A stretch of DNA of 64,000 nt from Sphingobacteriales bacterium (lineage in GTDB: Bacteria; Bacteroidota; Bacteroidia; Sphingobacteriales; Sphingobacteriaceae), in NCBI GenBank assembly GCA_015655115.1, contig JAATFQ010000290.1, positions 1-64,000 on the forward strand, given 5' to 3'. The notes under the pieces were generated by a model, which had not been told where the DNA came from, made no database searches, and saw only the letters and a list, made by a program, of their open reading frames with translations. Position 1 is the first letter of the stretch. Each line of letters begins with the position of its first letter. Position numbers and translations under genes: made by a program. Positions 5,282-6,190 of this stretch are shown in pieces.

Positions 5282-5580
5282 ATGTTTTTCAGTTTGACAA
5301 AAGTACACTTTTTACTAGTTAATCAAAATGTTTTTGTCGAATATTTTGAAATTAGATATTAAATTCTTCATAAACAGGATATTGTGTTTTGATCTTTTTT
5401 TATTGCTAAGCCCATATTTGAAGGTAAAGTATAAACCCTGTGCAAATCTTGCCGCAATCAGGATGGAAATGTAACTGGTAATGCTTGTTAATTGGCCTGA
5501 TGGTATGTGAGCAGAAGATAAAACTGTAAACTAATACTAGTATGGGACAGTCCGGCAACGATCCTATAACTCGTTAATAT

Positions 5581-5767
5581 GTTGCCCGGTTGTCGCCTGA
5601 CAGTTGCCCGGTTGCCGCCTGGCCAACTGTACTCTAACTGTACCCCATCCGTACCCCAACTATACCTAAGGGTACGGATGGGGTACAGTTAGAGTACAGT
5701 TGGGGTACGGATGGGGTACGGATGCCCGGGCAACAGTCAGGTCACAACTGGGCGACAGTCAGGCAAC
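5581..5767. repeat. 11-bp-periodic block-palindromic repeat element (17 consecutive 11-mers)
   Basis: Manual partition into 11-mers; perfect 34-bp inverted repeat 5623-5656 / 5670-5703 with a 13-nt spacer. Confidence 0.85.
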
Positions 5768-6035
5768 ATCTGCACGCGTTATCGAACACTGGTGCCAGTG
5801 ATTACCTGTTAAATATAGCGCATAAACTTGCTTATATTTAATTAGAAGGATTGTCAAAAGGATTTAAAGACACGGATAATTCCGGTTATTGAAGGTGCTG
5901 CTGTTTTTTTTGCAGCGCATGATTTATATCCAATACTTAAACAAAAAGTGTATTTTATATGAAATTGTTTAAAACTTCTTGATATTTAACATAAAAAATG
6001 AGTTTAAACGTTTTTTATATTCAAAAAGATAATTA

Positions 6036-6114
6036 CATTTGGGCTTACCCTTTCGGGGGTATGTTTTTCATAGGTAGATGTAGGGCCGAAAATTTATTTT
6101 CGGCCCTTTTTTGT
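6036..6114 (+). ncRNA. Candidate small RNA or short leader with its own promoter-like box and terminator
   Basis: TACATTTG (TAnnTTTG-type -7 box) followed by an ACCC-TTTCG-GGGT hairpin and GGGCCGAAAA-TTTA-TTTTCGGCCC-TTTTTT. No ORF. Confidence 0.4.
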
Positions 6115-6190
6115 ACAGGCAGTTAATGTACCTTTATCTGATGACAGGTTCTCGTCATCGACCATAAATCCGGATTAATAATAAAGATTC

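Follow-up and report, generated by a model that had tools for sequence, protein, structure and literature searches.

A dispersed palindromic repeat of 11-bp units in a Sphingobacteriales genome, probably a gene-less mobile element

What kind of sequence is a gap-free run of seventeen 11-mers, arranged as a palindrome at positions 5581-5767 of the 64-kb stretch of DNA analysed here (the window)? Three possibilities were put forward in the sequence-only reading: a multi-site protein array or chromosome organiser, a mobile palindromic element, and a long structured RNA. Its description of the letters was accurate. Every unit reads exactly as listed, 5623-5656 is the exact reverse complement of 5670-5703 (the perfect 34-bp inverted repeat), the unit-like upstream word AGTCCGGCAAC is present at 5549-5559, and no open reading frame of at least 60 amino acids is listed across the element in the window. 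The anticipated autocorrelation excess is also there: identity at lag 11 is 0.56, compared with a mean of 0.253 and a maximum of 0.364 in 2000 shuffles, while lag 22 gives 0.51 and the highest shuffled value at any lag from 2 to 44 is 0.424. The best 12 187-bp windows at lag 11 across the 64-kb window all overlap the element, and Tandem Repeats Finder independently called a period of 11 at 5623-5666 and 5670-5724, covering both TAC blocks.

The period-11 core thus stands as first described, but the element runs past both of its ends and is multicopy, two features that had been missed. The whole is approximately 280 bp long, from about 5523 to 5805, with 5581-5767 as its 187-bp core, and contains the following parts.

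5523-5549, plus strand: left end, a conserved 27-bp terminal motif ACTGTAAACTAATACYAGTATRGGACA, which has just three exact occurrences in the genome, this one included.
5548-5569, plus strand: zone A, the outer 11-mers CAGTCCGGCAA and CGATCCTATAA; the consensus from an alignment of 17 half-elements is CGGTCCGGTAA.
5570-5580, plus strand: left spacer unit CTCGTTAATAT between zones A and B, near CGCGTGCAGAT, the consensus of the half-element alignment.
5581-5624, plus strand: left-arm zone B, four GCC-type units; every copy with both arms complete has four B units per arm.
5625-5657, plus strand: left-arm zone C, three TAC-type units, paired with the innermost three right-arm units.
5658-5668, plus strand: loop unit AACTATACCTA; of the 9 copies whose loop is intact, 8 carry this unit with zero to two changes and C3 does not.
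5669-5723, plus strand: right-arm zone C, five TAC-type units, of which the outer two (5702-5723) are predicted to form a 22-nt bulge that is mostly unpaired.
5724-5767, plus strand: right-arm four GCC-type units, the reverse complement of zone B.
5768-5805, plus strand: right spacer, outer unit and right end (ATCTGCACGCG TTATCGAACAC TGGTGCCAGTG); the right boundary is approximate.

Because of its loop unit, the element has an orientation. When copies are oriented by the loop, the order from the outside inward is terminal motif, zone A, spacer, zone B and zone C; this order is the same across the 17 half-elements, and unit numbers are near-constant. Zone B units are of type GTTGCCCGGTT or GTTGCCTGACT. 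Zone C units are GTACCCC-type, ATCCGTACCCC or AACTGTACCCC, with three to the left and five to the right of the 11-nt loop unit. Among copies with both arms complete, there are two departures: C76 has one additional left unit, and C3 differs in its pairing register. The single arm present in C282 has seven B units. It is unusual for three different motifs to keep a constant 11-bp period.

A search of the same genome, which is 81% complete, gave strong matches on ten contigs with 77-90% identity, or about ten copies of the element. There are nine full or near-full copies, namely the window copy and eight others; C282 ends at a contig end. In addition, C40 is a shorter derivative, C44 is a more degenerate copy at a contig start, and C224 carries the terminal motif as a probable solo end or relic. 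Two copies lie at contig ends, as expected if copies break the assembly. All copies are intergenic, and the neighbouring genes and their orientations differ from copy to copy (among them rnhA/tRNA-His/ubiX, radC, accA, a glycosidase and a sodium:solute symporter), with no common theme. The GC content of the copies is 58%, compared with 41% for the window. Exact matches to ACTGTAAACTAATACYAGTATRGGACA occur in the window copy, at the end of the C148 copy and on C224; as candidate ends of an autonomous transposon, these three loci in the 81%-complete genome amount to two element ends and a probable relic. Looser, shorter versions of the motif, as judged by eye, are found at the ends of other copies. 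At the copy ends, which are not fixed in all copies, we saw no convincing direct repeats that would represent a target-site duplication. No transposase gene was recognised beside the copies among the neighbours examined, and no mobiliser was identified. The C254 copy is adjoined by a gene matching the Pycsar effector family PycTM (PF18967, E = 1.4e-30; L066 3227-3823).

The window copy lies at a locus that can be followed in related genomes. In six congeners, tRNA-His, a conserved segment (window 5994-6114) and ubiX occur in the same order with no 11-mer array between them, and the interval between the conserved flanks is approximately 400-460 bp shorter. The element is therefore absent from the orthologous locus in these congeners, as known from gene order rather than from a precise empty site; the exact insertion junction is not visible because the intergenic DNA is too diverged. 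The surplus DNA exceeds the length of the element, so that other changes must have occurred at the locus too. Part of the interval between tRNA-His and ubiX (window 6040-6121) is strongly conserved in congeners and is a probable small RNA gene: it is preceded by a promoter sequence resembling TANNTTTG and has a terminator made of a hairpin and a T-run. Its similarity to Rfam suhB/mmgR is weak and sub-threshold (27.9 bits; gathering score, 41).

Beyond this genome, the family is distributed in patches. A BLASTN comparison with 59 relatives returned nothing, and pattern searches in approximately 150 congeners identified G130 as a credible carrier and, at lower stringency, G145, but no others, leaving about 147 of the 150 with no detected member. 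G130 has four copies (78-83% identity) with the same inner TAC units, outer units CGGAAACGATT and a different middle stem. G145 has two loci, both of which fold as hairpins and one of which matches at E = 2.8e-4. Scattered single pattern matches in other family members were at or below the frequency of the reversed-pattern control; because they were no commoner than that control, we counted only G000, G130, G145 and perhaps G200. Phage records gave no match, and every plasmid match listed lies within the neighbouring tRNA portion of the query.

Several more distant matches were set aside. A viral contig (L032) matching the TAC-type pattern lacks a repeat array and was attributed to chance, a gammaproteobacterial match (L031) has two units only and is probably chance as well, and a period-11 GGTA match in the phylum (L102) lies inside an apparent coding region. 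KatS3mg025 (L030/L065) has GGGGTACGGTT 11-mers that may reflect convergence; they form a run adjoining a tandem array (L065 1800-2800) with units of about 275 bp, each with a short GGGGCACGGCATGCCGTGCCCC palindrome. Two genera (L104 and L105; G685 and G498) share an identical stretch of 37 bp in which TGTACC recurs every 11 bp; a tRNA-Asp gene adjoins it in L104, and the stretch may belong to an integrated element. Elsewhere in the phylum, other 11-mers that have a GGTA core also form arrays. Those of G200 (L076, L092) are long and mostly one-directional, with approximately 14-20 GGGTATGGAAA-type 11-mers and a short opposing arm. Such arrays are perhaps related to the family described here.

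The dispersal of the copies, their conserved ends and fixed zone order, the patchy distribution and the congener locus without the element lead us to conclude that the element is probably one copy of a non-autonomous, gene-less palindromic repeat family of about 280 bp, resembling miniature inverted-repeat transposable elements (MITEs) or foldback elements, with arms made of an 11-bp minisatellite; its mobility is deduced from this pattern. Of the three original options, the mobile palindromic element is thus the one that fits best, given the dispersed copies at unrelated intergenic sites and the congener locus. Foldback elements and classical MITEs are multicopy sequences with long terminal inverted repeats and no coding capacity. 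The element shares these features: it falls within 50-1000 bp, contains no transposase gene, occurs in multiple dispersed copies and has arms that are inverted over nearly their full length. Against this assignment, no target-site duplication stood out at ends that are not fixed in all copies, and the copies are GC-rich, unlike typical MITEs, which are AT-rich. The element also differs from foldback elements and classical MITEs in its 11-bp internal periodicity and in that no autonomous partner was found in the 81%-complete genome. Copies may have spread via a transposase or another enzyme supplied in trans, which would act on the ends or on a folded single strand, and 11-bp units could have been gained or lost by slippage or unequal pairing. 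The match between the apical arms within a copy (see below) may be maintained because one arm is copied from the other by way of the hairpin when the DNA is replicated, repaired or transposed.

The remark that no named family matches also holds, since Rfam contains no credible match and the closest published element found is built differently. This is the BrickBuilt MITE of Porphyromonas gingivalis, which is intergenic, has 19 copies in one strain, and carries 23-nt tandem direct repeats flanked by a leader and a tail that are themselves non-repetitive, as well as short terminal inverted repeats (PMC4596501). Both elements belong to Bacteroidota, are intergenic and enclose a minisatellite in a gene-less unit with inverted-repeat ends. 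Compared by description, however, the period here is 11, both arms are inverted 11-mer arrays and the whole element is one hairpin, so BrickBuilt is the nearest relative in kind but not in design. REP elements of the GTAG and CGTC superfamilies are likewise dispersed intergenic palindromes; they are 20-40 bp long with a terminal tetranucleotide tag (PMC3733652). In contrast, the present element is about 280 bp long and built of 11-mers, and it falls outside REP elements so defined.

Might the copies instead be genes for a structured RNA? The predicted RNA fold of the stretch is extreme (-147.8 kcal/mol, z = -11), and a long hairpin is predicted for every checked copy. Moreover, the inner (apical) arms of the stem match each other better within a copy than between copies (mean scores of 29.1 and 25.4); in this genome, only 22 of 40320 permutations were at least as good (p = 0.0005), and under a second scoring p was 0.0016. 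The corresponding test in G130, with only four copies of unnormalised orientation, was not significant. The third unit counted from the loop illustrates the matching in this genome: its ending varies among copies (TCT, TCC, TGC or CCT) but is identical in the two arms of a copy. Apical matching fits either selection for a paired apex or the copying of one arm from the other, as proposed above for the mobile element, and by itself it does not separate RNA from DNA.

Transcribed copies of such an RNA family would fold into about ten A-form turns, which an RNase III-like or double-stranded-RNA-binding protein would process or bind while selection keeps the apical stem paired. This explanation stays alive because one turn of an A-form RNA duplex takes about 11 bp, and the two additional zone C units of the right arm, which recur in most copies despite their asymmetry, also speak for it. 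Yet slippage in multiples of a unit would likewise preserve length, so that an 11-bp period need not imply RNA. Folded as DNA, the stretch is just as extreme (z = -12.1), the two strands of each copy fold alike with similar energies, and copies lie in all gene orientations. Mismatches between the arms show no clear G-U excess on one strand (44 versus 34). Zone B of the same genome's copies matches no better within than between copies, and the outer units show no within-copy matching. An apparent tendency of zone B units to be of opposite types between arms (own-arm in-register identity below cross-arm identity, approximately 0.002 in that tail) disappeared once one-unit slips were allowed. In an Rfam 15 scan of the window, only tRNA reached the gathering score, and the sub-threshold matches of the element are generic miRNA hairpins. 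A long stable fold and a covarying apex are present, but no strand-specific signal was seen, and we regard a structured RNA as unlikely.

An array of sites placed every 11 bp for a DNA-binding protein, be it a regulator, a nucleoid protein or a segregation factor, is quite unlikely. Zones A, B and C are three different motifs at the same period, so the spacing itself may matter. The suggestion that 11 bp would place all boxes on one face of the helix is weak, however, because B-DNA has about 10.5 bp per turn and strict 11-bp spacing drifts off one face over 20 units. The neighbouring genes share no theme, the family is too patchy among congeners for a core chromosome function, and neither a protein array nor a chromosome organiser has direct support. 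Finally, a neutral minisatellite that grew within an ordinary hairpin, and whose copies arose through chance recombination rather than a dedicated mechanism of spread, is very improbable: although other family members such as G200 have GGTA-core arrays with no matching long second arm, local slippage does not produce complete copies at many unrelated sites with conserved ends and a fixed zone order.

As a probable mobile palindromic repeat, the element would add a family with an internal grammar, comprising three zones of 11-bp period and arms that co-evolve at the apex, which is not described in the literature found. Tentatively, it could represent a new class of hairpin elements in Bacteroidota, assembled from blocks of one duplex turn (11 bp) each and with arms that are actively kept complementary. 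This would point to an undescribed enzyme or RNA- or DNA-hairpin-binding protein that reads or copies the hairpin; GGTA-core 11-bp arrays such as those of G200 would then be further members. The element is also a natural case in which to study the persistence and spread of long hairpins in a bacterial chromosome, and how their two arms stay matched.
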